The notes under the pieces: model-generated
Seen by the model: only the letters and a program-made list of their open reading frames with translations
Database searches by the model: none
Told to the model about the DNA's origin: nothing
Origin: Nepenthes gracilis
Taxonomy: Eukaryota > Streptophyta > Magnoliopsida > Caryophyllales > Nepenthaceae
DNA: 64,000 nt
Direction: 5' to 3'
Assembly (NCBI GenBank): GCA_033239525.1
Contig: BSYO01000005.1
Span: forward strand, 3,072,001 to 3,136,000
Shown: piece after piece, positions 2,177-32,958 of the stretch
How positions within the stretch are numbered: position 1 is the first letter of the stretch
How the letters are laid out: the number at the start of each line of letters is the position of its first letter
Made by a program: the position numbers and the translations under genes

Positions 2177-2181
2177 AATAT

Positions 2182-3019
2182 TGATGGGTCCCGGAACCCA
2201 ATGCCTAAAATTGCAATCGCAGGCCCAAAGGATCACATGAAAAAGCTGGCCCAAAAGGCCCACAAGCCTAATCAGGCCCAAATGACTAACCCATTTCCGA
2301 GCACCTGAAGAATCAAATTAAGCGACAAAGGCACTGGCGGTCCGAGAGGGCACTGTGGCCCATTCGAGAACGAGGACAGCCAGAAAGGCCAAAATAGCCA
2401 AGACGCCAGCTCAGATGACTTGCACGGCATACGCTACCACGAGCGACCAACGGCTTCTAACATGCCGTACCTGCAGGCCATGCGCCCCTGAGCGCCGTAT
2501 CTGCAGACTGTGACAGGTGTCCCTGTCACAGCCGCACCTACAGTAGTGGTGGGGATGGCAAGTGGCTCTGACGCACCAGCGCCACGTGTCGCCTCTCTAA
2601 CGCCATCACGCTCCTTATAAATACCCTATTCAAACTACTAGAGGAGGATTCTGAATTCCCATCTGTTTACGCTCGAACAAGAGAATCCCCGAGAGAAAAA
2701 GAAAGGCAAAGAGAAAAGAGTGAAGAGAGAAATCTGCCTCCTTACGTTGTAATTAAGCGAACAGCTTCCCAGGCACTCATTGTATCTTTTCATCGCAATA
2801 GTGAGATTTCTCGGACTGTCTGTCCGCTGCCGTGGTTTTTCACCCCTCATCGGATAACGGGGTTTTCCACGTAAACCTGCGTGCTCTCCCATTGCCCCCA
2901 CATTTCTTTTTCTCTGATCGGGCTCTGTTTACTTTGTGTTGTCCGTTTTTGTCTGTCCGCCCGCTCAAAAAGCCATTCGCGCTTCGACTAGCATACGGCC
3001 AGACTCCGCGAACGTAACA
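2182..3019 (+). repeat. 5' LTR of the Tat-like element
   Basis: It begins TGATGGGTCCCGG and ends CGTAACA. It carries a TATA box (CTTATAAATACCC) near 2614, preceded by a G-box-like CCACGTGTCGCC. It matches 21337-22167 along its length, except for a block at about 2420-2545 that differs strongly between the two LTRs. By eye the first 230 bases differ at roughly 6 percent of positions, and the downstream U5-like part is closer. Confidence 0.9.
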
Positions 3020-3040
3020 TTGGCGCCGTCTGTGGGAAGC
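3020..3040 (+). other. Primer-binding site
   Basis: TTGGCGCCGTCTGTGGGAA directly follows the 5' LTR. This is a commonly seen tRNA primer-binding sequence in plant Ty3/gypsy elements. It fixes the LTR end and the plus orientation of the element. Confidence 0.85.
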
Positions 3041-3129
3041 ACTGGCCTCAGCTACAAACCGGGCCAAGAATCCCCTCAAGCTCTCCCTGGCACCCCGTTT
3101 GATCCGGGTGAGGTGCCAAGGCAATTTTC

Positions 3130-3485
3130 CACTCTTCTACCGGAGGCGACCGGGACAGGAAGGCCGTCGCCAGATCTCCAAAATCGCGGATAGAGTCCGC
3201 GGCATCCCATAAAACCATATCCGCACGTCCCCTTTTAAAGTTAAAGGGAAGCACCGCACATGGTTGTCTCGCCTGTGCCCCGGAGGTTCGTGTGTTCCCC
3301 GAATGATCGAGGTGATCCACGGGATCACCGTTGCCGTCGTACACCTCCAGATTAGGCATCTTGAATTTTGGAGGGAGCGTCCTCGTCCTAATCTCCGTGG
3401 AAAATGGAGACTGGAGCGCGTTAGCCCCTCCTCCACTGCTCTCTCGCAACACCGGATTCCATCCTCTTTCCGGTCTACTCTCCAC
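3130..3485 (-). pseudogene. Inverted gag core fragment
   Basis: On the minus strand the segment encodes the conserved start of a Tat-type gag domain: PPKFKMPNLEVYDGNGDPVD, then in a second frame FPLTLKGDVRIWFYGMP, then RDFGDLATAFLSR. At least one frameshift separates these parts. Gag should lie on the plus strand, because LTRs, primer site, RNase H and integrase all read plus. This piece is therefore inverted, with a breakpoint near 3125-3140. Upstream in the gag reading direction (higher coordinates) it runs into the first arm of the palindromic array, which identifies the array arms as gag N-terminal sequence. The central gag motif occurs only here. Confidence 0.75.
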
Positions 3486-6400
3486 TAGAGGTGGGGCAAC
3501 CGCCTTATTCTCGTTCAGGTAGTGCCTTAACTCGTAAGGCTCCTGGACTGCACGACGCTCTGGGGTCGTGCGGGATCCTCTTGGGGGAGCATCTCATGGA
3601 ACCGCCTCCTTGTCATCGTGCTCGCGGCGGTTCCACTGGGCCTTAGAGTGGCGCTCGGGGATCTCAAGGATCTCCGAGGACCCAGTGGCCTCCAGCAGCA
3701 GCAGAGCACCATGGAAGGTCGAGGACCAACAAGGTCCTCGAGTCCGAGGCGAGAGCCCCGAGAGGCGCCACTCGAGGCCTGGGCGGAATCGGGCCGCGAG
3801 CACGACGACCGTGAGGCGGTTCCACGAGACGCTCCCCAAGAGGAGCCCGCACGCCTCAGAGGGTCGTCGTCGCCCAGAGCCTTACGAGTTAAGGCACTAC
3901 TCAACTAGAAGAAGGTGGCTGCCCCACTCGGAGTGGAGAGCAGACGAAAGAGGATGGAATCGGTGCTACGAGAGAGCAGGGAGGAGGGGCTAACGTGCTG
4001 AATCTCCGTGGGAAAACGAGATTACGACAAGAACGCTCCCTCCACTGCTCTCTCACAACACCGGATTCCATCCTCTTTCCGGTCCGCTCTCCACTCAAGG
4101 TGGGGCAGCCACCTTATTCTCGTTCAGGTAGTGCCTTAACTCGTAAGGCTCCGTACCGCACGGCGCCTGGGCCGCGCGGGCCTTCAAGGAGCATCTCGTG
4201 GGAACCGCCTCCTAATCGTTCGCCATGGGCGGTTCCGCCGGGCCTCAGAGTGGCGCTCTCTGGGATCTCGCTGACTCGGGACCTGTGGCCCACAACCTCC
4301 GTGGTGATCTGAGGGCCGAAGCCACCCGGGTCCCTGTCCGAGGCGAGATCCCCGAGAGGCTCCACTCTGAGGCCCAGCGGAGCCGCCGGGTGCACGACGA
4401 CCAGTAGGCGGTTCCACGAGATGCTCCCCTAAGAGGAGCCCGCACATCCCTAGAACGCCGTGCAGTCCAGGAGCCTTACGAGTTACTACACTACCTGAAC
4501 GAGAATAAGGCGGCTGCCCCACCTCGAGTAGAGAGCAGACCGGAAAGAGGATGGAATCCGGTGCTGCGAGAGAGCAGTGGAGGAGGGGCTAACGCGCTCC
4601 AGTCTCCGTTTTCCACGAAGATTAGGACGAGGACGCTCCCTTCTCGTGCAGTCCAGGAGCTTTACAAGTTAATGCACTACCTGAACGAGAATAAGGCGGC
4701 TGCCCCCATTCTCGAGGGAGAGCTTTAACTCGGAAAGAGGATGGAATCCTCGGGGCTGCGGCGCGAGAGCAGCTGGAGGAGGGGCTAACGCGCCACGGGG
4801 CTTTTCCACGAAGATTCCGACGAGGACGCCCTTCTCGCCGACCCAGAGCTTTACAAGTTAATGCACTACCTGAACGAGAATAAGGCGGCTGCCCCACCTC
4901 GAGTGGAGAGCAGACCGGAAAGAGGATGGAATCCGGTGCTGCGAGAGAGCAGTGGAGGAGGGGCTAACGCGCTCCAGTCTCCGTTTTCCACGAAGATTAG
5001 GACGAGGACGCTCCCTTCTCGTGCAGTCCAGGAGCTTTACAAGTTAATGCACTACCTGAACGAGAATAAGGCGGCTGCCCCACCTCGAGTGGAGAGCAGA
5101 CCGGAAAGAGGATGGAATCCGGTGCTGCGAGAGAGCAGTGGAGGAGGGGCTAACGCGCTCTGGCCATAATCTCCACGAAGATTAGACGAGGACGCCCTCC
5201 TCCATCGCCTCCGCCGGGCAAAGACCGATTCCATCCGCTTCCTGGGCCTCGCTCTCCACACGAGGGGTGCAGCGCCTTATTCTCATTCAAGTAGTGCATT
5301 AACTCGTATGGTCTCCCGGATCGACGGCGCCTGGGGGCCGTGGCGGGCCTCTTGGGAGCATCTCGTGGAACCGCCCCCGGTCATCGTGCTCGCGGGGGTT
5401 GGCTGGGCCTTAGCGTGGCGATCTCGAGATCTCGCGAACTGTGGCTTCCAGCAGCAGAGCACCACGAGGGTCGAGGACCAACCAGTCCTGGGCCTCGAGG
5501 CGAGAACCCCGAAAGGCGCCACTCGAGGCACAATGAAACCGCCGCGAGAACGACGACCAGAGGCGTCTCCACGAGATGCTCCTAAGAGGAGCTCGATGGC
5601 CTGCCTCAGAGCGCCAAGCTCCAGAGCCTTACGAGTTAACGAACTACCTCGAACGAGAATAAGCGGCTGCCCACTCGAGGGAGAGGGCATCGAAAGAGGA
5701 TGGAATCCGCACGCGAGAGAGCAAATGGGAGGAGGGGCTAACGGCCGCAGCCTCCGCTTTCCACGAGATTACGACGAGGACGCTCCTCCTCCACTGCTCT
5801 ATCGCAAAGACCGATTCCATCCTCTTCCGATCCGCACTCCACTCGAGGTGGGGCAGCCGCCTTCTTCACATTCGTGTAGTGCCTTAACTCGTAAGGCCCC
5901 GGATCGCACGGGAGCCTGGGCCGTGGCGGGCTCCTTTGGGAGCATCTGCGGGAACCGCCTCCCGGGCCATCGTGCTCGCGACGGTTCCATCTGGCAGAGT
6001 GGCGCATTCTCGAGGATCTCGCCTTGACAGGTGGCTTCCCAGCTTCACAGAGCACCACGGAGGGTCGAGGATCAACCAGTCCTCGTGTCCGAGGCGAGAA
6101 CCCCGAGAGGCGCCACTCGAGGCCCGGGGCCGGAACTGGGCCGCGAGCACGACGACCAGAGGCGATTCCACGAGATGCTCTCCAAGAGGAGAGCCCGCAC
6201 GGCCCCTGAGCGCCGTGCAATCCAGAGCCTCACGAAGTTAAGGCACTACCCGAACGTGAAGAAGGCTGCCCCACTTCGAGCGGGAGAGAAGACCGAAAGA
6301 GGACGGAATCGGCATCGCGAGAGAGCAAAGGAGGAGGGGCTAACGCGCCATAATCTCCGTGAGATTACGACGAGGATGCTCCTCCTCCATCCGCCTTCTC

Positions 6401-9400
6401 GCAAGACCGATTCCATCCTATTTCCGGTCTGCTCTCCAATCGAGGTGGGGCAGCGGCCTTATTCTCGTTCAGGTAGTTCAATAACTCGTAAGGCTCCTGG
6501 ACGGCACGGCGCTCTGGGGCCGTGCGGGATCCTCTTTGGGGAACATCTCGTGGAACCAACTCCAGGTAGTCGTGCTCGCGGCGGTTCCGCTGGGCCTCAG
6601 AGTGGCGCCTCACGGGGATCTCGCCTAGGACCCAAGTGGCTTCCAAAGAACAGAGCACCACGGAGGATCGAGGTCCAACTGTGTCCCTGTCCGAGGCGAG
6701 AGCCCCGAGAGGCGCCACTCTGAGGCCCAGCGGAACCGCCGCGAGCACGACGACTAGGAGGCGGTTCCACGAGATGCTCCGGCAAGAGGAGCCCGCACAG
6801 CCCTAGAACGCCGTGCAGTGCAGGAGCCTTACGAGTTAAGGCACTACCTGAACGAGAAGAAGGCGGCTGCCCCACCTCGAGTGGAGAGCCGACCGGAAAG
6901 AGGATGGAATTCGGTTCTGCGAGAGAGCAGTGGAGGAGGGAGCGTCCTCGTCGTAATCTCCGTGGAAAACGGAGACTGGAGGGCGTTAGCCCCTCCTCCA
7001 CTGCTCTCTGATTAACCGATTACATCCTCTTTCCTATCCGCTCTCCACTCGAGGTGGGGCAACCGCCTCTTCTCGCTCGTGCAAGGCCTTAACTCGTAAG
7101 ACTCCCGCACCGCACGATGCTCGAGGCAAAAGGGCTCCACTGGGGGGAGCATCTCGTGGTCAGATTGCTCAAGCTGCGGTTCTACTGGCCTCAGAGTGGG
7201 GCCTCTGGGATCTCGCCTGACCGAGGACCTTGTTATTCCTCAACCTCTGGGTGCTCGAGGACCAACCCAGTCCGGGGTCCGAGGCGAGATCCCCGAGAGG
7301 CCCCACTCTGAGGCCCAACGGAACCGCCGCGAGCACGACGACCAGGAGGCGATTCCATGAGATGCCCCCAAGAGGAGCCCGCATGCCCCCTGCAGCGCCG
7401 TGTAATCTAAGAGCCTTACGAGTTAAGGCCCTACTGAGATAAAGGTGGCTGCCCCACCTCGAGTGGAGAGGAACTGGAAAGAGGATGGAATCCTGCCACG
7501 CGAGAGAGCAGGAGGAGGAGGGAGCGCCTCCGCCCCAATTTCCGTGGAAAATTAAGACTGAGACGTTAGCCCACCTCCACCGCTCTCTCGCAAAGACCGA
7601 TTCCATCCTCTTTCGGGCCCGCTCCACTCGAGGTGGGGCAACCGCCTTATTCTCGCTTTCAGTAGTGCATTAACTCGTAAGACCCTGACGACACGCCGCG
7701 CCGGGCCGTGGCGGCTTTCTCTGGGAGCACTCGTGAATCGCCTCCCGGTCGCTCTGGCCGCGCGATTCCGCCAGCCTAGATGGCCCTCGGGGATCTCGCC
7801 GACCCGAGGACCAAGGTGGCCTCCAGCAGCAGAGCATCATGGAGGGTTGAGGACCAACCAGGTCCTCGGGTCCGAGGCGAGAGCCCCGAGAGGCGCCCCT
7901 ATGAGGCCCAGCGAAACTGCCGCGAGCACGACAACCAGGAGGCGATTCCACGAGATGCTCCCACAAAAGGAGCCCGCATGACACCAGAGCGCCATGCAGT
8001 CCAGGAGCCTTACGAGTTAAGGCACTACACCGATCGAGATTGGCAGGCGCCACCTCGAGTGGGAGAGCAGAAAAGAGAATGGAATCCGGTGCCGCGAGAG
8101 AGCAGCCAGAGGTAGCGCCCTCGCCCTAATCTCCCGGAAAAACGGAGATCGGAGCGCTGTTAGCTCCTCCTCCACCGGCTTCTCGCGCAGCACCGACTCC
8201 ATCCGCTTCCGGCCTACTTCCACTCGAGGAGGTGCACGCCATATCCTCGCTCAGTGTAGTGCATTAACTCAGAGATGCCTCCGATCGCACGGGCTGGGGC
8301 CAAGGGCTCCTCTTTGGGAGCATCTCGAGGAACCGCCTCGGTCGCCGTGTTTCGCGCGGTTCCACTGGCCGCAGAGTGGCGCCTGGGATCTCGCCGAACT
8401 CCGAGGAAGCGGGCTCCAGCAGCAGAGCACCACGGGAGGGTCGAGGACCAACCAGTCCTCCTGGCCCGAGGCGAGAGCCCGAGAGGCGCCACTCGAGGCC
8501 TGGCTGGAACCGGGCCGCGAGCACGACGACTCGTGAGGAGGTTCCACGAGATGCTACCCCAAGAGAGCCCGCACGGCCCCAAGAGCGTCGTGCAGCCCAA
8601 AGAGCCTTACGAGTTGGGCGCACTACCTTAACGAGAAGAAAGTGGCCGCCCCACTCGAGTGGAGAGCAGAATGGAAAGAGGATGGAATCCGTCCCGCGAG
8701 AGACCAGCGGGAGGAGGGAGCGGCCTCGCGCGAATCTCCGTGGAAACTTGAGATCGAGCGCGAGGACCCTCCTCCATCGCTCTCGCAAAGACCGATTCCA
8801 TCCTCTTTCCTCGCTCACTCTCCACTAGGGGCAGCCGCTCGCTTCTCATTCACAGTAGTGCCTTAACTAACAGTCAGTAAACCGGATCGCACGGGCGCCG
8901 AGGCCCGGTGTGGCCTCTGGGGCAGCATTCGTGAACCGCCCCGGTCGCCGTGGCTCGCGGCGGTTCCTACTCGGGCCTCGAGAGTGGCGCCTTCCGGCTC
9001 GACCGACCCGAGGACCCGGTCGGGTCCTCAACCGTGGTGTGCGGCCGCTGAGGCCACCGGGTCCGAGGCGACATCCCCGAGAGGCGCACTCGAGGCCAGG
9101 CCTGAACCGCCGTGAGCCCGACGACCAGGAGGCGGGTTCCACAAGACGCCTCCTAAGAGGATCCCGCACGCCTGGGAAGGCCGTGCGCCCAGAGCCTTAC
9201 GAGTTAGCACGCACTATCCAACAGAAGAAGACGGATGCCCCACCTCGAGAGTGGGAGAGCGACGGAACGGTAGATGGAATCCGTGATGCGAGAGAGCAGG
9301 GAAGAGGAGCTAACGTGTCTCAGCCTCCATTTTCCAAGGAGATTACGACGAGGCCGCTTCTCCTCCTCCATCGCTTCTGGGCAAAGACCGGGATTCCATC

Positions 9401-12400
9401 CTCTTTCTGCCCCGCTTCCACTGAGGTGGGGCAGCCGCCATATTCTCATTCAAGCTAGTGCCTTAACTCGCCGTAAGACTCGACCGCACACGGCGCCTGG
9501 GCCGTGGCTCCTCTCTTCGGGAGCATCTGTGGAACCAACTCCGGTCTTTGCCAGGCTGCAGCCTACTGGCCTCGCAGTGGCGCCTATGGGGAACTCTCCA
9601 ACCCGAGGACCTGTGGCCTCCAAAGCACAGCGCATCGCGGGAGGGTTGAGTACCAACCAGGTCCTCGGGTCCGAGGCGAGAGCCCATAGAGACACCACTC
9701 TAAGGCCCAACGGAACCGCCGCGAGCACGACGACCAGGACGTGGTTCCACGAGATGCTCCCCCAAGAGGAGCCCACACGACCCAAGAGCGCCGTGCAGTC
9801 CAGTAGCCTTACGAGTTAAGGCACTACACCGAACGAGAATAAGGTGGCGCCCACTCGAGGTGGAGAGCTGACCGGAAAGAGGATAGAATCCGCACTGGAG
9901 AGAGCAAAGGAGAAGGCTAATATGCCCCACCATTTTCCAAGGAGATTACGGGAGCGCAGCCAAATTTCTCCTCCATTCTTCTCTCGCAGACGGGATTCTA
10001 TCTCTTTCCAGTCAGCTCCACTCGAGGTGGGCAGCGCCTTATTCTCGCCGTATAGTGCATTAACTCGTAGCACTCGAGACAAGGCTGGCCTCAAGGGATC
10101 TTCTGGGAGATCTCGTGAAACCAACTCATCATCCCACTGCCAGTCCCCACTGGCCTCAAAGTAGCCCCTCTCGGGATGTCGCCGACTCCGAGGACCTGTG
10201 GCCTCCAAAGAAGAGCAGCACGAGGGTCGAGGACCAACCAGTCCTCGGTCCGAGGAGAGAGCCCAGAGAGGCGCCACTCGAGGCCTCACTGGGAAACCGC
10301 CGCGAGCACGACGACCTCGTGAGGCTGCCCCACGAGATGCTCCCAAGAGGAGCCCGCACGCCCTGTGAGCGCCGCGGCCCAAAGAGAGCCGAGTTAAGGC
10401 ACTAGCCGAATGAGAATAGGTGGCCGCCCCACTCGAGCGGGAGAGCGACCGGAAAGAGGATGGAATCCTGTGCAGCCGCAAAGAGAGCAGCCGGGAGGAG
10501 GAGCGGCCTGCCGTAATCTCCATTTGGAAAAAGGAGATTACGAGCACGCAGCCCTCTTCCATCGCTCTTCGCATCACCGGATTCCATCCTCGCCCGGTCC
10601 GCGCTCTCCGCTCAAGGTGGGGCAGCCGCTTTATTCCTGGGGCCTGGTGATAGTGCATTAACTCGTGAAGGCCTTCCGGATGGCACGACGCCTAGGGCTG
10701 CAAGGGATCCTCTAGGGGAGCATCTTGCGGAACCAACTCCCCGGTCATCGCTCACGGCGGTTCCACCGGGCCTCAAAGTGGCGCCTCGAGGATGTCGCCT
10801 CCGACCCGTGTGGCTTCGAAGAAGAATAACCACCAGAGCCGAGGACCAACCAAGTCCCTGTCCGAGGCAGAGCCTAGAGAGGCGCCACTGAGGCCTGCTG
10901 AATCGGCCACAGCACGACGACAAGGAGGCGGTTCCACAAGATGCCGCCCAGAGGAGCCCACACGGCCCAGGAATAAGAAGGCAGGGCCCAGAGCCGACGA
11001 GCTAAGGCACTACTCGAACGAATAAGGCGCCGCCCACATCGAGTGAGAGCGAAGATGAAAAGAGGATGGAATCCGGCTGGTCGAGAGAGCAATGGAGGAG
11101 CGGCTCGTCAGAATCTCCGAAAACTAGATCGGAGCGCGTTAGCCTTCTTCCACGCCTTCGCAAAGATCGGGATTCCATCCGCTCGTCCTCAAGGCCCACT
11201 CGAAAGGGCAGCCGCCTTCTTTCTCGTTGCAGTGCCTTAACTCGTAAGGCTCTGACCGCACGGCGCCTCGGGCCGTAGGCGGGCTCCTCGGGGAGCATCT
11301 CGTGAAACCGCCTCCCGGGTCTGGCGTGCTCTCGAGCGGCGCCTCGGCCTCAGAGGCGCCTCGGCTTTCGCCGGCTTGATTGTGGCTTCCAACCGCAGAG
11401 CACCGTGGTGAGAGTCGAGGGACCACCAAGGCCCCGGGTCCGAGGAGAGCCCAGAGGCGCCACTCGAGGCCAGCGGCGGAACTGGGAGCAGCACAACGAC
11501 TGTGAGGAGGTTCCACGAGATGCTCCCGAGAGGAGCCCGAACGCCCTCAGAGCTCCGGGCACCAGAGCCTTACGAGTTATGCACTACTCGAACGAGAATA
11601 CGGCCGCGCCACCTCGAGTGGGAGAGCGGATCGAAAGAGGATAGAACCGGCCGCGAGAGAGCAAAGGAGGGGCTAATGCGCCCCGTCTCGTTTTCCACGG
11701 AGATTAAGACGAGGACGCCCTCCTCCACCGCTTCTCTCACAACACTCGGCGAAAGACCGATTCCATCCGACTTCCGAACGCCACGCTTCTCCACTACCCG
11801 AGGGGAGAGAAGACTCAGGAAGATTCTCGAGAGAGTTCAGGAGCTGCTTAATCTCCGTGGGAAAACGGAGACTGAGCGTTAGCCCTCCTGGGGCTCGCGG
11901 TTCTCCTTCGGCGGGAGCATCTCCACTGAGGTGGGGAACCGCCTTATTCTCGCCGTGTTCAATAACGCAGTGCTCCTGCCCCGCCGGGGCCTCTGGGCAG
12001 TGGCGCTCTCGGGGCATCTCGAACCGACCCGAGGACTCGGGTCTGGGTCCTCAACCTCCGTGGTGCTCGCCGCTGAAGCCACTCGGGGGTCCCTGTCCGA
12101 GGCAAGATCCCCGAGAGGCGCCACTCGAGGCCTGGAACCGCCGCGAGCACGACGACTGTGAGGAGGTTCCACGAGACGCTTCCCAAAAGGAGCCCGCACG
12201 CCTCGCAGAGCGGCAAAAGGCATAAAGAGCCTTACGAGTTAAGGCACTACACCGAGAAGGCCCGCCCCACCTCGAGTGGAGAGCGGACCTAAAGAGGAGG
12301 AATCGGTGGCCGTGGAGAGAGCAAAGTGGAGGAGGGAGCGCTCGCCATAATCTCCATGGAAACGGAGATCGGAGCACGTTATCCCCTCCTCCGCTCTCTC

Positions 12401-14330
12401 GCAAAGACGGAATTCCATACTCTTCCTGGCCTCGCTTCTCCACTCAGGTGGGGCGCGCTTTCTTCTCGCTCGTGAGTGCCTTAACCGGGAAAGGCTCCTA
12501 AACCGCACGGGGCGCTGGGCCGCAAGCTCCTCTCGGGGAGATCTCGTGAACCGCCCGGTCGCCGTGCTCACGGCGGCTACGGGGCCTCAGAGTGGCGCCT
12601 CGGGCCTCGCCCCGACCCGGGTTGCTCTCAACCTCGTGGTGCTCGCGGGCACCTGGTTAACGGGTCCGAGGCGGGATCCGAGAGGCGCCACCAGGCCCAA
12701 GGAACTGGCCGCAGACGACGACTCGTGAGGCGGGTCCCACGAGATGCGCCCCAAGAGGAACACCCCAAGGGGTCGCAAGCCGTGCAGCCCAGAGCCTTAA
12801 CGCACCACCCAACGAGAAGAAGGCCGCCGCCCTCCGAGTGGGAGGCACGAAAAGAGGATGGAATCCTATGGCCGCGAGAGAGCAAGGAGGAGGGGCTAAC
12901 GCGGCCTGGCCTCCGCTTTCCACGGAGATTACGACGAGCCGCCTCCTCCATCGTTTCTCTCGCAAAGACCGTGATTCCATCCTCTTCCTGGCCTCGCTCT
13001 CCACTCGAGGTGGGGCAGCCGCCTTATTCTCGCTCAAGTAAAGGCCTTAACTCATAAGGCTACTCGACCGCACGGCGCCTCCGGGGCCGTGCGTGGGCTC
13101 CTCTTGGGAAGCATCTCGTGAACCACCTCCGGTCATGCTCGCGGCGGTTCCATTGGCCTCGCAGGGGCGCTCGGCTCCCGCCGACCCGAGGACTGGCTGG
13201 TCCTCAACCCTCCGCGGTGCTCGCTACCGAGGCCACCCTGGTCTCTGTCCGAGGCAAGATCCCCGAGAGGCGCCACTCAAGGTCCAATGGAATCGCCAAA
13301 CAGCAAGACGACCCAGAGGCGGTTCCACGAGATGCTCCCAAGAGGAACCCAGACGCCCAAAGAGCTGTTGTCGCCCGGGAGTCTTACGAGTAAGGCACTA
13401 CCCGAACAGAAGAAAGAAGCCGCCCCACCAAGTGGAGAGCAAAATTCGAAAAGAGGATGGAATCCCGGCCGCAAGAGAGCAGTGGAGGAGGGGCTAACGC
13501 ACTGGGCCTAAAGTTTTCCACGGAGATTACGACGAGGACGCCCCTCCTCCACCGCTTCTCTCGCAAAGACCGGATTTCCATCCTCTTTCCTGGCCTCTCC
13601 ACTCGAGGTGGGGCAGCCGCCTTATTCTCGTTCAGGTAGTGCCTTAACTCGTAAGGCTATGGGACCGCATGGCGCCTCGGGGCGTGCGGGCTCTTGGGAG
13701 CACCACGGAACCGCTCCTGGTCGTGTGGTGCTCGCGGCGGCTCACGGGCTTCGAGGGCGGCGCTCGGGGCGCCTCCGACCCGGGACCGTCCGTCCTCAAC
13801 TTCGTGGTGCTCTGCTGCTGAGGCCACCTCGGGTCCCTGGGTCCGAGGCGAACCCCGAGAGGCGCCACTCGAGGCCCACGGCCGCCTGGCCGCGAGCACG
13901 ACGACTGTGAGGCTGCCCACGAGATGCTCCCCAAGTGGAGCCCGCACGCCCGCAGCATCGCAGCCCAATAGCCTTACGAGTTAAGGCACTACCTGAACGA
14001 GAATAAGGGGGCCGCCCCACCTCGAGTGGAGAGCCGACCGAAAAGAGGGACGGAATCCTGGTCTTGAGAGAGCAAAGGAGGAGGGAGCGGCCTCGTCGTA
14101 ATCTCCGTGGAAAACGGAGACCGGAGTGCTTTATCCTCCTCCATTGCTCTCTCGCAGCGACGGATTCCATCCTTTTTCCGGCTTGCTCTCCCCTCGAAAG
14201 GGGCAGCGGCCTTATTCTCGCTCGGGTATTGCATTAACTCGTAAGGCTCGACCGCACCGGCGCCCTGGGGCCGCAAGGGATCCTCTTAGGGAGCATCTCG
14301 GGGTCCTCGCGAGGGACATAGGGGAAGTTC
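3370..14330. repeat. Palindromic tandem array, period about 595 bp, about 18 periods
   Basis: A GC-rich block in which one arm of roughly 250 bp alternates with its reverse complement. The marker GCCTTACGAGTTAAGGCAC occurs on plus near 3880, 4475, 5627, 6225, 6826, 7410, 8006, 8600, 9197, 9807, 10388, 10990, 11566, 12230, 12795, 13382 and 13972. Its reverse complement occurs near 3524, 4129, 5295, 5880, 6480, 7087, 7665, 8256, 8855, 9457, 10052, 10648, 11230, 11950, 12473, 13040, 13638 and 14228. Most same-orientation steps are 570-607 bp. Exceptions are a direct-repeat expansion near 4465-5170 and an irregular part near 11820-11960. Copies differ by many small indels. The overlapping ORFs of 100-280 codons on both strands are shadows of this symmetry and are not genes. 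Confidence 0.9.
4465..5170 (+). repeat. Direct tandem repeat, about 187 bp x 4, inside the palindromic array
   Basis: Here the alternation breaks and four head-to-tail copies follow one another. The marker CACTACCTGAACGAG recurs near 4487, 4675, 4864 and 5050. Copies one and three are almost identical, with one difference seen by eye over about 180 bp. Copy two is clearly more diverged. Each unit holds one arm start plus the central spacer. Confidence 0.8.
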
Positions 14331-14429
14331 CGCCCGAGGCCAGCCTTAAAGGGACAGCGCCTGGGACTTTCGACCGTTGAGACGGCGCCGCCAAATCACG
14401 ACGAGGACCAAAGCTACAACGGACGGCCG

Positions 14430-14830
14430 GGCAGGCCTCCACTGACCCCTTACATGTGGATGGCTCCTCCATGAAGGATAGGCCGCAAGGTGGATTGCCT
14501 TCACACACCTTTGAGAGGTTGGAGATAAAGTACTCGCTAACCCCGGGTTCTCGCCACAAACGCCACACGCACGAGGCCTTCTTTGTTTGGACTCCGACTG
14601 GTCAAGGAATGCTCGAGCGGCCAGAGATCATCTATAGTGACTCTGATTGGTCATCAATCGTCCGCGGAAGCCGACGTCAACAACGCGCACTGGCCCAAGT
14701 ATCTTTCAAGGTTAAGAGCATGTCACGGGTTTCAAGATGGCCGAGTTCATCCACATCCCGCGGGAGGAAAAAGCCAAGGCCGACACGCTCGCGCGAGCCA
14801 CGGCTTCAGGGGATCATGAACAGTACGCTA
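14430..14830 (+). pseudogene. Retrotransposon RNase H remnant (archaeal-type, Tat-like)
   Basis: The reading starts with LHVDGSSM, which carries the first catalytic aspartate of the RNase H fold. Pieces such as LEIKYSL, IIYSDSD, ADVNNAH and the end 'IHIPREE..KADTLARA' follow, spread over three frames. Several frameshifts and missing blocks show it is dead. It sits upstream of integrase, as expected in Ty3/gypsy pol, but reverse transcriptase and protease are not found before it. The array ends about 100 bp upstream. The end is cut by the nested solo LTR at 14845. Confidence 0.75.
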
Positions 14831-14844
14831 GGGGGATGCGAGAA

Positions 14845-17200
14845 TGTCACGAACCCGAACCAAGCAGGTCAATTTAAATAATTAATTATAATTTCTAAAA
14901 TCTAAAATCCCAAATAATTTTAAAACCAATAATACTAAGTCCCAAAAATTCGGGTGTGACAAACTAAAATATACACTCAACAAAAATAAAATCTTTACAG
15001 AACCTTATCGAACAACTGTCCGAACAATATAAATGTGACCTGCTCTACAATAGTCGTAAGGGAGGTAATAATCCAACCCAAAAATCATCATCAAACATAA
15101 CATAATATTCAAACTATTCCCGAAATATAGCAATAAGCTCATATTCGGCCAATTCCATAATCCAAATACATCAAATATCAATATTAATCGTAATAAAACT
15201 GAAACTCACCAAATCGGATGAATGTCTGACCGATCACGTCTTTACTTTTATACTGCATCCGAACCTTCTACTCTGAAGGGACAAAACAGAAAAATGAGCC
15301 TAATGCGCAACAAGTATCATATTTAATCAAAATGAGTCCAATAAATCAGATGAGAGGTCAATGAATGAAAATCCAATCAAATTCCAAGATAAATCCAAAT
15401 CGCCGATAAGACAAATCCAACCCAAATCCAAGATCCAAATTTCAAAATCCAATGGTAGTCTCGTACTCAAATCAAATATCCAAATCCAAACAAATGTCCA
15501 AATTTCAAAATAGTCCTCGTCGAGACGTGTATATATATATAAACATATATATAACCAAAACAGAGGTGATCCGAACCAATTCCAAAATCGATGTCAATCC
15601 GAGTCCAAATCCAAGTCCGAGTCCAAGTCCAATGCCCGATCAGCTTGTGATCTGTGGTAGAATCCGATAGTCGGATGATCCAACAGCGTGCGCAGAGACC
15701 GAAGCAGCACCGCGACAGATATTCTAAAGGTCCAAATCAAAACATATAATCAAAATCATTTATACGAGACATACCAAGCCCAATTATAGGCAAAATCGAC
15801 GAAACTCAATCCAAGTACAAAAATTCATATCCAAATCAAAGTCCAATTCCAATCAATGCAAAAATACAAATTATGCACCAAATCTGGATTCTCATTATTT
15901 AAAGATTAACTTGAGGAATGGTTACACATAATCCCGATAACCTTAGGCCAAAATCCATTATGCCGTGTACCCATAGATAAGGTTGCTCACTATATTTTAC
16001 CTTTGTGACTTTGGGTGCATTCTCAAGTTTGTCGGATATATTAGACGCCCAAATATATTCTAAGGTCAAATCAAATTATCCAAATGGGAAAGTGTCACTA
16101 CTTCAAGCCTTTCTCACGGGCATGAAAGGGATTTCCAACAATAAAAATAATCTCCCGTCGAGTCGGGCGAGAATCCAATAATCCAAATCCAAATCCAAAT
16201 GTAGCGACCACAACCCTCAAGACGTGTATGTGATCACACGGCCAATGCAAAGTTTTATGCTCATTTTTTTATACAAATATATTAATATAAAAATATACAA
16301 TGTCCAATAAATTATTCGGACTTTCAGAAAAATATTAAATTCTCTAAAATCATAAAACCCAATCCAACAACCCCCAAAACATCCAATAAACTATACATGC
16401 ATGTCTAGAATAAATTAAATGGGTGTACAAAATTCATGTATGTTAGTAAAAATTTCAAACAGTACCCAAAATATATCAGAAATTAAATTAGACCAAAGAG
16501 GGGGTTTACAGATACTTACCTGAACTTCATACTTAGCAGATCTGAAAAAAGGATGTCCCGAAATATCCGAATCGGCACACTCTCTCTGCCGTGAGCGCTG
16601 CCGCACGTGACCCTTGCCCATCCGATTTCTCTCTCCGAGACGGCCGGCTCGCCAGCCAAGGCTCGACCGCCTTCTCGCCGCTCAAGCCTGGCTGGCCGGG
16701 TTGGGCACGGCCTCCCGCACCACCCGGCCTAGTACGGCGCCGTAATGCGCCGCTGCCTCTCTCTCCTCCTCCGTGGCTTCGCCGCGTTCACTCCCGCAGC
16801 CTTTGCCACACACACACCGCCGCTCACCCACCAGTGGGTCATCAAGAGCCACCAAAGCTATCACCGACCACCATCGCAGCCGCCACCACCGCGCGCCACC
16901 GTTAAGAACGCTGCCGACAAACGCCGTCACCTCCTCGACGGTTTTCTCTTCGTGAAACCACCACCGGCCAAATTTCCAACCGCCGACAACCACCGGCATC
17001 GCCATCCTTGCCGCTCATCGCTATCGCCGGCTGCCATCGAACAACCGCCTTCCTCCCTCTTCTCCTTCTCTTCTCTCTCCTTCACCGACGAAACCCTAAA
17101 CCTCCTCTCTCTCCTCTATCTTCCTCTCTCCCCGATCTTATCTCCTGCAAATTTTCTTTTTTTTTTTTACTTATTTTCCAATCCTTATCCACCTTTATTT

Positions 17201-17232
<32 letters not shown>

Positions 17233-17462
17233 ATATTATATTATTATATATATATTATATATATATTTTCCATTTTAGTTTTCTTTTATTCCAAAATCCA
17301 AATCGATATCGGGTAATAATGCAGGCGCACCTCAGGTGTCATCCTGACTGATCCAAATCTCAATTCAAATTTCATAATATCTAATTCAATTTTTGTCATG
17401 CCCAAAATACCCAAAATTACAATTGATATTAAATTGGTCCAAATAAAATCCGGAATATTACA
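14845..17462. mobile_element. Nested solo LTR, 2.6 kb
   Basis: The block begins TGTCACGAACCC and ends GGAATATTACA. It is flanked by the perfect 5-bp duplication GAGAA at 14840-14844 and 17463-17467. It interrupts pol of the host element between RNase H and integrase. It contains CCAAATCCAAAT-type short repeats (15380-15620 and 16165-16200), a GC-rich stretch at 16560-17070 and an AT dinucleotide run near 17205-17270. The length would suit long-LTR gypsy groups, but the family is an inference. The ORFs at 16591-17316 and 16682-17005 lie inside it and look like low-complexity LTR sequence. Confidence 0.85.
17205..17270. repeat. AT-rich dinucleotide tract
   Basis: An (AT)n-like run inside the nested solo LTR, interrupted by short TTAT steps. 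Confidence 0.8.
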
Positions 17463-17465
17463 GAG

Positions 17466-18770
17466 AAGTCCTAGGCAGGTCCAGCATTGAAGACCCCGAG
17501 CAGGAGGTAATGCAAGTCGCGGACGGAAGCACCTGGATAACTCCCTACCTGAGGTTTTTATCTGATGGCTCGATGCCCGAGGATCTGAACGAGGCCAAGA
17601 AGATAAAGAAGACGGCGGGCTGGTACACAATCGTGGACGGCCAGCTGTATCGACGGGGCTTCTCAGCCCCTTACCTAAGGTGTCTCACCCCAGATGAGGC
17701 CGAGTACGCCCTACAGGAGGTGCATCTCGGAATATGTGGATCTCATATTGGGGGAAAGAACCTAGCTTTTAAACTTATGAGGCAAGGATACTACTGGCCA
17801 ACAATAAAGTACGATGCCATGGATTTTGTGCGCAAATGCGAAAGTTGCCAACTTCACAGCAACATGAGCCATCGCCCCCACACGGATCTCCGGGCGCTAC
17901 AATCCCCGTGGCCATTCGCCCAATGGGGGCTCGACATCCTCGGACCATTTTCCCTCGCTTCTGGACAAAGGAAGTTCCTGATTGTTGGAATAGACTACTT
18001 CACCGAATGGGTAGAAGTGATCACTGCTAGGATAACAAAAAACGCGCTGAGTTCCTCCGTGAGTATTGTATGCGAGTTTGGAGTACCGAGTGCATCGTGG
18101 TCGATACGGGATGCAGATTCACCGGAAGCGATTCACTAAGTAATCGCGAAGCCTCGAGAATCAACTTAGTACATATATCGCTGGCATACCCGCAGCCAAC
18201 GGGCAGGTAGAAGTGACAAACCGCACGATCCTACATGGGCCGAAAACCAGCCGGAGTCTTCCGAGGGCTCGTGGGTACATGAAGCGCCTCGGTCCTCTCG
18301 GTCATCACACAGACAACGCCTAGAGAACCCATAAGAGAAACCCCTTTCAGTCTTTGCTACGGGGTCGAAGCTGTCATCCCAATAGAAGTATGCCTCACAA
18401 GCCCCCGGGTTGGGTGCTTCAGCGCAACGGATAACAGCCAGAGGCTCTGAGAAAGCCTCGATGCCCTCGAGGAAGTTCGTGATCAGGCGAGGCTTAGGAT
18501 AGCGGCCTACCAACAACGGGTGGCCCGCTATTACAACAAGAAAGTAAATGCGCGACAATTCGAGGTCGAGGATCTCGTACTGAGAAGCGTGGAAGCCACG
18601 GAAAAAATCGCCGGCAGAAACAAGCTCTCACCAAATTGGAAAGGACCATTTTTTGTCTCGGCTATCCTTCGAGGAGGAGCTTATAAGTCGCGCACCCAAG
18701 AGGGCAAGTTGGTACCCCGGACTTGGAACGCCACCTTTGCTCACCGGTGAAATACTACCCGGTGAAAGAC
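17466..18770 (+). pseudogene. Retrotransposon integrase remnant
   Basis: The open frame 17510-18139 encodes the zinc-binding region (HLGICGSH ... CESC, the HHCC ligands) and the start of the catalytic core (WGLDILGPF with the first acidic residue, then GIDYFTEWVE). After a frameshift near 18040 the core continues in other frames (AYPQPTGQVEVTN-like, then EAVIPIEV near 18370). The C-terminal part is at 18520-18750 (ARYYNKKVNARQFEVEDLV ... GPF). The end motif VPRTWNA is typical of Tat-lineage pol. No chromodomain is visible. Multiple frameshifts and stops rule out function. Confidence 0.85.
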
Positions 18771-19020: not shown

Positions 19021-19077
19021 CCTTTTTATTCATAAATACAATACAACAATGGAAAAGGAAAAACAAAGGCTAGCCTC

Positions 19078-20929
19078 GCCAGGGCCTTGGGGTAGAGCGA
19101 CCCCGGATTGCTCTTCTAAAGACGAAGAGTCCTCTCTGTGACTCGAAGTTTCCGGCTGGTCTGATGAGCAAGAACCTGCTGAGGAGCTTGGACCCGAGGA
19201 CCCAGGAAATGGCCTGCCACGAAGACCGTACACGTCCTCGGGGCGCGCGGCGCTTGCATTACGCGGATCCAGCACAGTAGCGGGGAACCGTGAGTACAAG
19301 AGCTGCATCAACCAGCGGCATAGGTGAATGTCGTCCAAGAACTTGGCCTCCAGCAGGGGGCTATGTCGGTGGCCTTCACCGAGGTCCTCAGCACCTCCTC
19401 CAATTGAAGGCTTCGTTCCAGAAGGAATCCGTATCGGGCCTCTAAGAGCCTCAGGGCTTCCTCAGATGAAACGTTCTTTGCGGTGGCCTCAGCAAGCGCC
19501 GCGTGAAGCCGCTGGTTCTCCTCCTAGACGGCCTTCGAAGACTCCACCACCGAACGAGACCGGGCGACTTCGCCCACTAGTTGGCTAAGGCCACTGATCA
19601 GATCCTGGAGCTGCAAAAGGAATCAAAGCCACTTAGAAGCAGTCAACAGAGGGCAAGGCAAATGAGAAGGTGGCAAAGTACCTGAGAAACCACAGGATCT
19701 TGAGTGGGGGCACTCTCCCTTGAGGTCTCGGGCATAAGCGGGTGCTCGCGGTACTGCGAACATCAAGCGGCCTCGGACGAAGGACCTTCGGGAATGGGGG
19801 CTCGCCACCTCTCCGGACGTCGGCCGGCTGGGATCTCTAAGATCGCGACCTCGGCCTCATCGCCGCTTAAGAATGTCAAAAATGTCATCTAGCGATAAAT
19901 GGACGGCCCTCCATCCCACAAGGCTCTACGATCTCGTCCAAGGTTGCCTCCCCCAAGGCATCAAAGGCTATAGGATCGTCAGAAGAAAACCAGCGAGGCA
20001 GGCGAGACCTCGGGATGGGCACCGATACCAGAGGAAGGAGGTGCGGCGACCCCGAACTGCATAGGAGGACCAGAAGCCAACCTCATGGCCTTTTTAACCA
20101 TGGGGCGAGAACTGAGTCATCGTCGATGAAGACTCACCCGGCGACGCTCGGTGCACCCCTGCGGGACCTCAATCATGGGCTCTTCTGAGGCCTCTCGGAT
20201 GGCTCTGGATAAGAGGACCCTCTCTTTTCCTTAGCTTCTTCTTCTTCTTCTTTGAAGCCCAATGGCAGAATCTCAGAACAGCGCCACCCACTTGGCCGCC
20301 GCCTTTTCGAGGGATAACCGAGATATTCTTCTTCCCCACGTTGAAGCTGCTAAGATTCGCCAGCACCAAGTCCGTAACCTCCCTGGCGGCTTCTCTTTCC
20401 TCGTTAGTAATGTCGGAGCCATATTTGCTCGCGACATTTCCCCATACGGATGAGAGCTGCCAGTCCTCAGCAGCCTTAAGAAAGAAGAACCTGTCCTTCC
20501 ACCTTTTGGTGGAATCCGGATTCCCACCACTCATCTCAGCAAACTCAGGGCGAGGGGTCATGGTGATCCAGTCGAGGTTATGAGTGAAGCGAAACATGAT
20601 CTTCACCATGACCGCCTCAAGAACTTTGTTTGTGGCAACGCGCGAATACGCACAAGGAAACCAAATACCATGATGGCGTTGGGGGGAGCCTCGCGAACGG
20701 GACGGCCAACTCCTTCATGGACGGTGGAGCTCGGAAGTGGGAAGAGGAAGCGAAGTCCACCTTTGAGGTGAACTTCAGAACAGCAATGTAACCTTAGGAG
20801 GATCGCACGCCCTCTCCGCGGCTCTTGGAACCACCATCGAATTGGACTCGGAATGCCATATTTCACCCTGATCTGCTCAAGATCTTGAGGAGAAAGGGAA
20901 GAGGCTATGTCATTAACGCCAGGAGCCAT
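19078..20929 (-). pseudogene. Antisense ORF of the retrotransposon, 'putative gypsy type transposon' type
   Basis: On the minus strand an ATG at 20929 starts MAPGVNDIASSLSPQDLEQI, followed by RVKYGIP and later KGGLRFLFPLP. In a second frame (20169-20609) come RPEFAEMSGG and KRWKDRFFFLKAAEDW. This order matches the N-terminal domain that databases call putative gypsy type transposon (PF04195, from memory). Frames break near 20605 and 20170, and the rest to 19078 is in pieces. Antisense ORFs between pol and the 3' LTR are known in Tat-lineage elements such as Grande and Retand. This explains the position and strand. The copy is decayed. Confidence 0.7.
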
Positions 20930-21138
20930 GGCAGCAAGGAACGAAAACGAAACGGCGTGGAGAATTTCAGAGGACGTCAAGGAAAAGGAGAAGAAAATGG
21001 AGGAATGAATGAAAGCGCGACAGAGAATTTAAAGAAAATTTCAAACAAGGGAAAAGGCGCCCTCATTATGGCCATCCCACGTGTCAGCTCCCCATACGCA
21101 GTAGGCGGGCGCAGGCCTTGGGGCTTCCCGAAATGACG

Positions 21139-21336
21139 TCACATCAATCAGATGTCACATTCAATGCTCCACGGGGAAGTGAAACGGCGGCGAAAGTCAG
21201 GTTTCAAATTTGCGAAAAGATCTCAGACATTTTTCGCTTCAGCAGAAGGTGAAGACCGCGGACTATCGCAATAGGAAGATGTTCACAAGGCATGTCAAAC
21301 GGCCGAGTCCTCGAACCGTTTGACATGGGGGGCTCG
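21139..21336 (+). other. 3' untranslated region and polypurine-like tract
   Basis: The region runs from the antisense ORF promoter side to the 3' LTR. GACATGGGGGGCTCG ends exactly at the LTR start and is the likely plus-strand priming tract. Confidence 0.6.
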
Positions 21337-22167
21337 TGATGGGTCCCGGAACCCAATGCCCAAAATTGCAATCGCAGGCCCAAAAGATCACATGGGAAAG
21401 CTGGCCTAAATGGCCCACAAGCCTAACCAGGCCCAAATGACTAACCCATTTCCGAGCACCTAAAGAATCAAATTAAGCGACAAAGGCACTGGCGGTCTGA
21501 GAGAGCACTGTGGCCCATTCGAGAACGAGGACGGCCGAGAAATGCCAAAATAGCTAAGACGCCACTCGGATAACACACGGCACTCTACGCCCTGACGACG
21601 ACCAACCTCTCGACACGCCGCACTGCGCAGTGTACGCGCCCGAGAGCCAGAATGTCTAAACCGTGCCAGTGTCCATATCGCGCCCGCTTTCTGAGTAGTG
21701 GTGGGGATGGCAGGCGGCTCTGACGCACCAGCGCCACGTGTCGCCTCTCTAACGGCATCACACCTTATAAATATCCCCTTCAAACTACTAGAGGAGGATT
21801 CTGAATTCCCATCTGTTTACGCTCGAGCAAGAGAATCCCCGAGAGAAAAAGAAAGGCAAAGAGAAAAGAGTGAAGAGAGAAATCTCTCCTTACGTTGTAA
21901 TTAAGCGGACAGCTTCCCAGGCACTCATTGTATCTTTTCATCGCAATAGTGAGATTTCTCGGACTGTTTGTCCGCTGCCGTGATTTTTCACCCCACATCG
22001 GATAACGGGATTTTTCACGTAAACCTGCCGTGCCTCCCATCGCCCCCACATTTCTTTTTCTCTGCTCGGGCTCTGTTTACTTTATGTTGCCCGTTTCTGT
22101 CCGTCCGCCCGCTCAAAAAGCCATTCGCGCTTCGACTAGCGTACGGCCAGACTCCGCGGGCGCAACA
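21337..22167 (+). repeat. 3' LTR of the Tat-like element
   Basis: It begins TGATGGGTCCCGG and ends GGCGCAACA, directly followed by the duplicated target AATAT. The TATA box is near 21763 (CTTATAAATATCCCC). It matches the 5' LTR except for the block at about 21570-21690. Confidence 0.9.
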
Positions 22168-22172
22168 AATAT

Positions 22173-30492: not shown

Positions 30493-31263
30493 TGTTAGAA
30501 TTCAACACCCGAATACACCCGATCTGGCACAGTGAAATAAACCCAAACCCCATCAACCGTTAGCCACCAAATTTGTGAGCAAAAAAAATAAAAAAATTAC
30601 AACAATTTTTAACATTGGAAACTCTTTTTAATCAAGGGAAAAAATACAAAATAAATTTCAAACAAATCCACTATAAATAGTGTCGGTTACAATAACCATT
30701 TTAAATCCCTTCACTCCGAACCCGAGTGAAAAATGGTTAAATACAACCTCCTCCCAACAAACCCAATAACTCACAATAGACATACAATGAGAAAAAGATG
30801 AACCAAACAAAAATATGTTTCCGAAAATCACCTTCAAAACGACGTACTTAATTTTGGCAAAGAACGGAACTCAAATCGGACAAACCGCACCCCGAACCTC
30901 TTCCTCTTCTCTTTTCTTCTCTCCTCTCTTACTATGCGGTGCCCCTTGTAGAGAAATATTTCAAAATTCTTCTTGGAACTAAACCCTAAAATCGTGCGTT
31001 CCCACCATTTTATAAGCCCCGAGCACGCTTAAGCGCCACTCGAGCGCCAAGTCTTTGGAATTGGCGTTCAAGTGCCGATCGACCACAGATCAGGCGCACT
31101 CCTTCTAGAATTTCCGCCTCTTCACCGCTCAAGCAAGCCTCGAGTGCCCGACTCGACCCCCGCCTCTTCGCCGCTCGCTACGTGTTGCACGATCCCGCGC
31201 AATCTTCTGATAACCTTCCGTTTATTGGGACACCCGCAAAGGAGTGACCAAAAAAATCCAACA
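30493..31263. mobile_element. Solo LTR, family 1, copy B (0.77 kb)
   Basis: It is the same family and orientation as 630-1408. It begins TGTTAGAATTCAACACCC and ends AATCCAACA. The flanks ATTTG (30488-30492) and GTTTG (31264-31268) match in four of five bases, so the duplication is probable but eroded. On the minus strand TTATAAAATGG is followed by AACCCTAAA-like sequence in reverse, a possible promoter. It lies about 330 bp beyond the 3' end of the PILS gene. Confidence 0.75.
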
Positions 31264-31596: not shown

Positions 31597-32958
31597 TCAG
31601 ATATAGAAGATCAGCAATCTAAAGTAGATGACAATGTACAGAGAAATGGAGATTACAGCAAACACATGCTGCCAAAAAAGAAGAGCTGAGGCCTCGCGAA
31701 CTGCATAACCGCGTAAGCTAGCAATTGCTCCCAACAAGATAGCACTCGGTGTTGTGTACTGAAGCAGAAGCACGAACCGGTATAGATCATCCCCCTGAAC
31801 CAGCAAATTCAATTTATCTGCCAAAAGAACTACCCCAATTCCAATCAATGGCAGTACCAGCAATCTCACAACAATAATGCCAATTGTAGTTCTTAACCCG
31901 AGCTTACATTTGCTCGGACCCTCAGCAAGAACTCCACCGAGAATAAGCATCACCGAGGGCACCATTGCACCCGCCATTATCTGTAGACTGTCTGTGATGA
32001 ACGAAAGTGGAGCATCTTCACCAAAAACAAAGGATTTGAGCCCCGGGACTATGCCCATAATGATAGCTAACAGAGAGGCAATTGTCGGAGGCTGAAGAAC
32101 ATGCTTGATTGGTGTCTGTTCAGCAACAATTCTAATCTTCCTCACCATCCTTGGCTCAGCAAGACATTTAATCGACCTTGGACTTCTCCCTCCACCCTCT
32201 TCCCCCTCCTCGAGATCAGGCACTGGATTTTGAGATATGTTTGATATGCTACTGAATACATTGGCAATAAAAGGTGTCTTCGAATGCTCGGTTTCCTTAT
32301 CCTCCATTCCTGGCCACTCCGCCTCATGCAGAAGCGGTCTACTTAGATCAGTATCAACCCTTGGCACTTCCTCCTCTATTTCATCCCCTTCACCGACAAT
32401 CTCAAAATACTCCATCGGAGGCTCCATCATATGATAAACAAGCGTGTAAACGAGTAATACAGCCACCCATTGGGCAAAAGACACATATGATACACCATTT
32501 GTATGACAATCTGGACCAAATATATTCTCTTTGCCATGGCATATTGAACTAACAATTGCAAGAGGCAAGTTTCCAGTGTTGCCAAACGCTGTCATAATGA
32601 CCGTGAACCGAGAATACTCCGGCGGCGGTCGACATATTAGTGACACCAAGTACCCCAACAAGCAACCAATGACTGTACTGATAAGTACATTGAATGGGAT
32701 GAACCACCAAAGTGCAAAGTTCTTGAGGGTAATGGATTGGCCGAGGTGGGTGAAAATCAAGCATGGCAAAAACAAAGCAAAAACGAGTTTGCTAAGAAGC
32801 TTGAATGTGGCTCTGGGGACAAGTTGAGTTTTAGGATGAGCAAGAACAACACCAATCAGAGTAAGAGAGATTAAATTTAACAGAGGAACAACAGCACTAA
32901 ATAAATTTTCCCCAGAATTCATCTTGCCATAAAGTTCTTGCAATAAGGATCCAGACAT
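31597..32958 (-). CDS. PILS: PIN-LIKES (PILS2/PILS6-type) auxin transport carrier
   Basis: Single uninterrupted frame of 453 residues. The PILS family sits in the ER membrane and moves auxin into the ER lumen, lowering nuclear auxin signalling. The order is: hydrophobic N-terminal half with LLNLISLTLIGVVLAHPKTQ, LVPRATFKLLSKLVFALFLP and FGNTGNLPLAIVSS; a long acidic cytosolic-type loop (about residues 180-290, including EEEVPRVDTDLSRPLLHEAE and a serine-rich stretch); then a hydrophobic C-terminal half with QPPTIASLLAI and TTPSAILLGAIASLRGY. This two-block layout with a variable loop is the membrane transport family pattern. The start at MSGSLLQEL was chosen because family members begin near there. 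The frame stays open 46 codons further to 33096, but that extension is probably leader sequence. It closely resembles Arabidopsis PILS2/PILS6 from memory; which paralogue is not certain. Confidence 0.93.
   Translation of the reverse strand: MSGSLLQELYGKMNSGENLFSAVVPLLNLISLTLIGVVLAHPKTQLVPRATFKLLSKLVFALFLPCLIFTHLGQSITLKNFALWWFIPFNVLISTVIGCLLGYLVSLICRPPPEYSRFTVIMTAFGNTGNLPLAIVSSICHGKENIFGPDCHTNGVSYVSFAQWVAVLLVYTLVYHMMEPPMEYFEIVGEGDEIEEEVPRVDTDLSRPLLHEAEWPGMEDKETEHSKTPFIANVFSSISNISQNPVPDLEEGEEGGGRSPRSIKCLAEPRMVRKIRIVAEQTPIKHVLQPPTIASLLAIIMGIVPGLKSFVFGEDAPLSFITDSLQIMAGAMVPSVMLILGGVLAEGPSKCKLGLRTTIGIIVVRLLVLPLIGIGVVLLADKLNLLVQGDDLYRFVLLLQYTTPSAILLGAIASLRGYAVREASALLFWQHVFAVISISLYIVIYFRLLIFYI

Follow-up and report, generated by a model that had tools for sequence, protein, structure and literature searches.

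Host element and position of the array

The DNA analysed, called the window below, is a stretch of 64,000 nucleotides from Nepenthes gracilis (contig BSYO01000005.1, positions 3,072,001 to 3,136,000, forward strand). It contains a broken Ty3/gypsy element, bounded by two long terminal repeats (LTRs), and inside this element an array of gag-derived arms that alternate in direction. The parts of the element are as follows, in window coordinates.

2177..2181, no strand: left target site duplication AATAT, matching the right copy
2182..3019, +: 5' LTR, beginning TGATGGG (BLAST pair with the 3' LTR, alignment, ends read from the sequence)
3020..3100, +: putative primer-binding-site-like start TTGGCGCCGTCTGTGGGAA and leader (read from the sequence)
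3100..3366, -: start of the gag core (MPNLEVYDGNGDP...), reversed relative to the element (frame-tolerant alignment)
3375..14308, no strand: alternating (palindromic) array (landmark mapping, arm extraction, spacer orientation scoring)
14310..14840, +: RNase H region, directly 3' of the array (frame-tolerant alignment)
14845..17462, no strand: nested LTR-like insertion TGTCAC...TTACA with a 5-bp duplication, GAGAA (ends and duplication read from the sequence)
17463..18750, +: integrase (Integrase_H2C2 match and frame-tolerant protein alignment)
21337..22167, +: 3' LTR (BLAST pair, alignment, ends)
22168..22172, no strand: right target site duplication AATAT, matching the left copy

Both array flanks are parts of one LTR element, as the 5-bp AATAT duplications agree. 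The LTRs are paired, have TG...CA ends and are accompanied by a target duplication, and RNase H (14328-14811, aligned to relative P0050) precedes integrase (17465-18362, aligned to relative P0004), which is the Ty3/gypsy order. The array abuts RNase H, and the layout leaves no space there for the remaining gag, protease and reverse transcriptase, for which no profiles were run. The nested insertion between RNase H and integrase resembles a 2.6-kb solo LTR. Frame breaks are found in the gag core (four against P0002, two against P0001) and in the RNase H region (two to four, varying with the relative compared). Alignment of integrase to P0004 gives six frame breaks within 18093-18329 (about 240 bases) and none in 17465-18090 (625 bases); these also vary by relative, with two against P0007, and with P0005 placing two at 18048 and 18088. 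The patchy indel damage of integrase in 18093-18329 resembles the damage seen in the array.

Arms, spacers and their gag origin

Landmark mapping over 3375-14308 recovers the order arm(-), S2, arm(+), S1, with a period of about 595 bp, in agreement with the palindromic array of about 11 kb that an earlier note had proposed from the sequence alone. That note described each arm as followed by its own inverse. The alternation is as described, but a unit is not an arm with its exact inverse, as the arms are parted by two unique spacers that each occur in both orientations: S1, which joins 3' arm ends (about 52 bp), and S2, which joins 5' arm ends (about 38 bp). Most of the array is palindromic, with the exception of 4459-5195, which consists of direct copies of about 186 bp. 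This direct repeat and one irregular unit are the only interruptions of the alternation. In total, 34 full arms of about 250 bp were extracted (33 of 233-268 bp and an irregular one of 326 bp), followed at the right array end by a truncated arm. Individual units referred to below are:

3427..3686, -: leftmost arm, among the cleanest (arm extraction, error counts)
3687..3727, +: first S2 spacer (landmark mapping, orientation scoring)
4459..5195, +: about four 186-bp copies in direct tandem (half an arm plus S1), mostly clean (repeat search)
6940..6991, -: clean flipped S1 between arm(+) and arm(-) (landmark mapping, orientation scoring)
11720..12045, -: irregular rearranged arm, 326 bp, with an extra S1 inside (landmark mapping, arm extraction)

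Exact repeats of 176 and 129 bp lie inside 4459-5195; with the 186-bp block set aside, the longest exact repeat elsewhere in 3300-14400 is at most 48 bp.

The gag N-terminal identity proposed earlier for the arms was confirmed by alignment of 3691-3218 (-) to residues 66-217 of the N. gracilis protein P0001 (119 identities). P0001 carries S2, arm, S1 and gag core collinearly, and the landmark peptides are single there, so its orientations of the spacers and arm are taken as ancestral and called plus. The gag piece at the left edge of the array (3366 down to about 3100) points against the element's own direction.

S1 is in plus orientation at 10 of 18 junctions and minus at 8, with a score gap of at least 20 in 16 of the 18. 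This count leaves out the copies at 3375, 4783, 4962 and 11838, the first of which was scored but not counted. S2 is plus in 10 of 17 cases and minus in 7 (score gap at least 20 in 13 of 17); the copy at 7225, counted as minus, is undecidable with a score gap of 1. Spacer order has no periodicity (p 0.71), and orientation switches at chance level (S1, 8 switches, p 0.39; S2, 5 switches, p 0.13). A higher-order palindrome of spacer order was considered, with the S1 at 3375 included and those at 4587 and 5148 taken as one. Its best centre, 12046, has 7 of 7 spacers mirrored, yet p is 0.07 and the palindrome is not claimed; of the seven mirrored arm pairs, the six left after dropping the irregular one are not more alike than other pairs.

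Differences between copies

Copies differ by about 16%, and the differences are rich in indels. Measured against a consensus built from the five cleanest arms, 33 arms together carry 763 substitutions, 392 deletions and 219 insertions; these 33-arm counts exclude the truncated arm at the right end, the irregular one at 11720 and the direct 186-bp copies. Among the 528 arm pairs there are 12485 indels to 14514 substitutions (0.86 per substitution), with a transition/transversion ratio of 1.0. The LTR pair has 26 indels to 52 substitutions (0.50) and 40 transitions to 12 transversions (3.3), or 14 to 41 (0.34) and 32 to 9 (3.6) without a variable patch. As a yardstick of natural divergence, a repeat pair outside the element (638-1294 and 30501-31166, 78% identity) has 28 indels to 102 substitutions (0.27) and 83 transitions to 19 transversions (4.4). 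The indel comparison was kept within one aligner, as the indel counts of the LTR pair change with the aligner. The variable LTR patch (2445-2545 and 21590-21690) is far more diverged than the remaining LTR, which differs by about 5-6.5% substitutions, and its 5' LTR copy contains a perfect 10-bp inverted repeat, seen by eye.

Variants within one arm direction are neither clearly linked (z 1.2) nor subject to a neighbour effect (z 0.4). Substitutions present in both directions likewise show neither linkage (z 0.1) nor neighbour similarity (z 0.5), with a slight bias toward the same direction (z 2.2). As these effects are near nil in both tests, there is little sign of units related by descent beyond their shared consensus.

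Differences follow the strand read

A mutation belongs to a base pair, while a calling error belongs to the strand that is read. The alternating array provides an internal control for this distinction, because each base pair of the arm appears on the + strand as T or as A depending on arm direction. With a majority consensus, + strand T is lost or changed at 322 of 1352 positions and A at 84 of 1387, and T exceeds A in every one of the 33 arms. With the consensus of the five cleanest arms, the counts are 387 of 1469 for T and 142 of 1501 for A, and T exceeds A in 30 of 33 arms. The excess is independent of arm direction. At the same base pair, the error rate is 133/664 with TC on the + strand and 26/689 with GA there (36 sites higher, 1 lower, n=41). 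The corresponding values for CTC context are 72/403 and 8/422 (23 sites higher, 0 lower, n=25), and the site-by-site lock to the strand is also seen in TG and CTG contexts. CTA and TA contexts show no strand difference, and CTT shows one in the paired test only.

None of 5000 shuffles of random orientation labels reaches the observed lock, and its sign is identical in all four quarters of the array. Trimer error rates of the plus and minus arms agree if taken from the + strand (rho 0.50, p 3e-4, n=48) but not as reverse complements (rho 0.04, n=56). Errors also climb from left to right along the array (rho 0.49, p 0.004); this rise and the clean leftmost arm fit a + strand that was read while passing ever more of its own complement. 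The pattern expected of nanopore miscalling of inverted repeats, in which errors follow the strand read and not the copy, is thus found here, although a 5-mer test (below) disagrees.

Two other sources of the pattern were rejected. Deamination decay of methylated DNA does not fit, as T has the highest rate of loss or change (T 0.26, G 0.16, C 0.14, A 0.10) and indels are many. A dimer satellite with fixed differences between plus and minus arms does not fit either, as the changes hit + strand T whether the arm is plus or minus. Raw CTG/CAG counts were of no use for mapping the noise along the window, and a literature search for methylation-linked nanopore errors in plants gave none.

Origin of the array

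The N. gracilis assembly was reportedly built from Oxford Nanopore reads and Hi-C data (PMC12244726). On the evidence of the strand lock, the differences between copies are likely nanopore calling errors. Both strands of the array carry equal content and neither should be systematically harder to read, so a lock of one sign over 11 kb points to reads of one strand. The chance that n reads all come from one strand is 2^(1-n), which is most simply satisfied by one read, and the constant sign also makes stitching from many reads less likely. Even one read must come from a molecule whose arms alternate and whose spacers flip, which a hairpin read round does not provide, and a real inverted expansion is therefore held more likely than an artefact. 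Taken together, the array is slightly favoured (probability about 0.5) to have entered the assembly through roughly one nanopore read of an inverted expansion, unstable and probably real, in the broken Ty3/gypsy element. The copy number, the divergence of copies and the germline status of the array are unproven; the 18 periods and the apparent divergence of copies are not usable without confirmation by reads of both strands or HiFi data.

Such an expansion could have begun with a growing strand that folded back at the short inverted repeats flanking S1 and copied the arm in reverse, giving an inverted duplication. A second turn at S2 would restore the original direction, and repeated turns, with recombination between opposed arms, would make the array longer and invert spacers. 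One such turn would be in keeping with the inverted gag core at the left edge. Nanopore calling would then likely have worsened along the self-complementary strand, with too few reads of equal length to correct it. Flanking S1 in the native order are two short inverted repeats, GGAGGG/CCCTCC and TGGAGG/CCTCCA.

Several observations weigh against a single-read origin or this mechanism. The lock is not supported by the 5-mer test (rho 0.03, n=44, for the same strand; rho 0.19, n=186, p 0.008, for the reverse complement), and the two arm directions show a weak correlation in error rate per site (rho 0.13, p 0.04). Single-base deletions are no more frequent in homopolymers than expected, with 110 of 238 in runs of at least 2, which hold 46% of bases. 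Five arms and most 186-bp copies are cleaner than the rest of the array; the lock is weak in the five cleanest arms (T 23/238, A 12/207), and the cleaner arms and exact 186-bp copies imply that some correction or several reads were involved. The length and sequence of the array would rest on very few reads, perhaps one, a number deduced from the lock and not from a count of reads. Frame breaks also occur outside the array, in gag core, RNase H and integrase. Same-direction arms two places apart share a slight excess of variants (z 1.8) and distant ones a deficit (z -2.3), a possible trace of real relatedness. The inverted repeats around S1 are just 6 bp long in a 118-bp stretch, could be due to chance, and are shorter than an unrelated one of 8 bp, the longest there. 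The turn-round mechanism is in addition weakly based because the native sequence upstream of S2 lies outside the window.

If the array is real, one retrotransposon holds a long run of alternating arms whose two loops each occur in flip and flop orientation, within a class of elements whose arrays are described as 3'-sided tandem repeats. A strand lock of apparent mutations in an alternating array would indicate read errors and few contributing reads, whether or not the array is real. As the test works on assembled sequence alone, it could flag similar blocks in other nanopore assemblies.

Alternative explanations

In parvovirus rolling-hairpin replication, the terminal sequence is found in both orientations (flip and flop), and the spacers of the array can be likened to such ends. 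It is conceivable, if rather unlikely, that the array is a germline structure of about 18 near-identical palindromic units, made by self-templated turn-rounds at two flip/flop hairpin loops, as a cellular analogue of rolling-hairpin amplification with gag coding sequence as its substrate. Strict rolling-hairpin doubling would, however, make one spacer alternate regularly, and no such regularity is seen.

About equally doubtful, or slightly more so, is a single aberrant molecule, somatic or produced during DNA handling by repeated self-priming, that was read once, with at most a few units in the germline. Long palindromes are unstable, which would favour this explanation, as would the one-strand signature across all 11 kb and the cleaner left part by the unique flank, as though ordinary reads reach a few units in. 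However, the inverted left gag core and the array running into RNase H imply a rearranged allele in the contig regardless, and clean units at 6382-6990 stand in mid-array. Fold-back artefacts are also rare, at no more than 0.61% of Oxford Nanopore reads of genomic DNA or cDNA (PMC12870357); the excerpt of that study allows for several fold-back breakpoints per read and does not mention trains of short arms.

Stitching of the array by the assembler, from different reads around a collapsed hairpin graph that permits either spacer orientation, is improbable. The apparently random spacer orientations are as this would predict, with neither periodicity nor an unusual number of switches, and the exact repeats of 176 and 129 bp are also compatible with it. 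However, mixing reads of both strands should switch the sign of the lock between segments, and the sign is constant in all quarters. The lack of exact repeats above 48 bp in 3300-14400 outside the 186-bp block also argues against simple reuse of one read.

Still less probable is a germline array of about 18 old units with real differences of 10-20%, amplified as a dimer of plus and minus arms. Variants are far more common to same-direction than to opposite arms (z 16.2). Clean arms differ mainly by substitutions (148 to 26 indels in six pairs without the arm 4039m; 85 to 56 in four clean pairs with it), and the weak excess of sharing two places apart points the same way. Fixed dimer differences would not pile up at + strand T in both arm types as the changes do, and substitutions found in both directions lack linkage and neighbour similarity. 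Furthermore, the indel share and transition bias are unlike those of other repeats in the window.

The earlier note had also suspected an artefact of a fold-back molecule read round and round; this suspicion holds at the base level, where indels behave as miscalls locked to the read strand, but a hairpin-ended molecule read in this way, which would explain the alternation itself, is very improbable, as each loop should have one orientation while both are found in both, and the flanks are one element with matching target duplications. Missed SMRTbell adapters were rejected on two grounds, the flipping of the spacers and the reported nanopore basis of the assembly (PMC12244726).

Relation to known systems

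The Tat/Ogre/Retand elements likewise have an internal array in a Ty3/gypsy element with a long internal region, as described in PMC7004042 and PMC11963269. Their arrays lie downstream of gag-pol, whereas the present one consists of gag coding sequence on the 5' side and alternates. It is placed between the 5' LTR and RNase H, in contrast to the position between pol and 3' LTR seen in Retand and Ogre. The portions of these two papers that were available describe no inverted arrays, and a limited literature search of titles and the starts of abstracts met no alternating array in LTR elements, though this does not prove absence. Among integrase relatives, the four top matches are all N. gracilis proteins, and the element resembles the Tat group in its layout and in the antisense fragments that precede the 3' LTR. 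Broken antisense open reading frames (ORFs) lie at 19033-21028, between integrase and 3' LTR, and six scanned fragments have no Pfam match above the cut-off. TRP28 (PF04195), reported in 97% of Retand clusters (PMC11963269), has no match in these six fragments, out of seven antisense ORF fragments listed there that are 70 aa or longer (21204-21422 was left out), and the frames are broken. The element is not assigned to Retand.

Inverted duplications are reported to degrade nanopore calling, with bases missed, once the read has passed the turn-round (Spealman 2020, PMC7229812), and low accuracy and missed bases after a self-complementary turn-round are shared with the array. That report concerns copy-number variants with one or a few inverted duplications, whereas here there are dozens of successive short arms. 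Nanopore reads of telomeres are described as miscalled strand-specifically, with systematic substitution of repeat units (PMC9414165), a strand dependence also shared. The two telomere strands differ in repeat unit; here both strands have equal content, so one-sidedness points to few contributing reads. Origin-dependent inverted-repeat amplification (ODIRA) and hairpin-capped inverted amplification in yeast give inverted copies by a template switch at short inverted repeats (PMC10766183), as would the turn-rounds proposed here. As described there, ODIRA is origin-dependent and gives interstitial triplications.

Other features of the window

Outside the element, an intact PIN-LIKES 2 gene (auxin transporter family) was found at 31597-33096 (-), with 83% identity to a Dionaea muscipula protein over 88% of its length.

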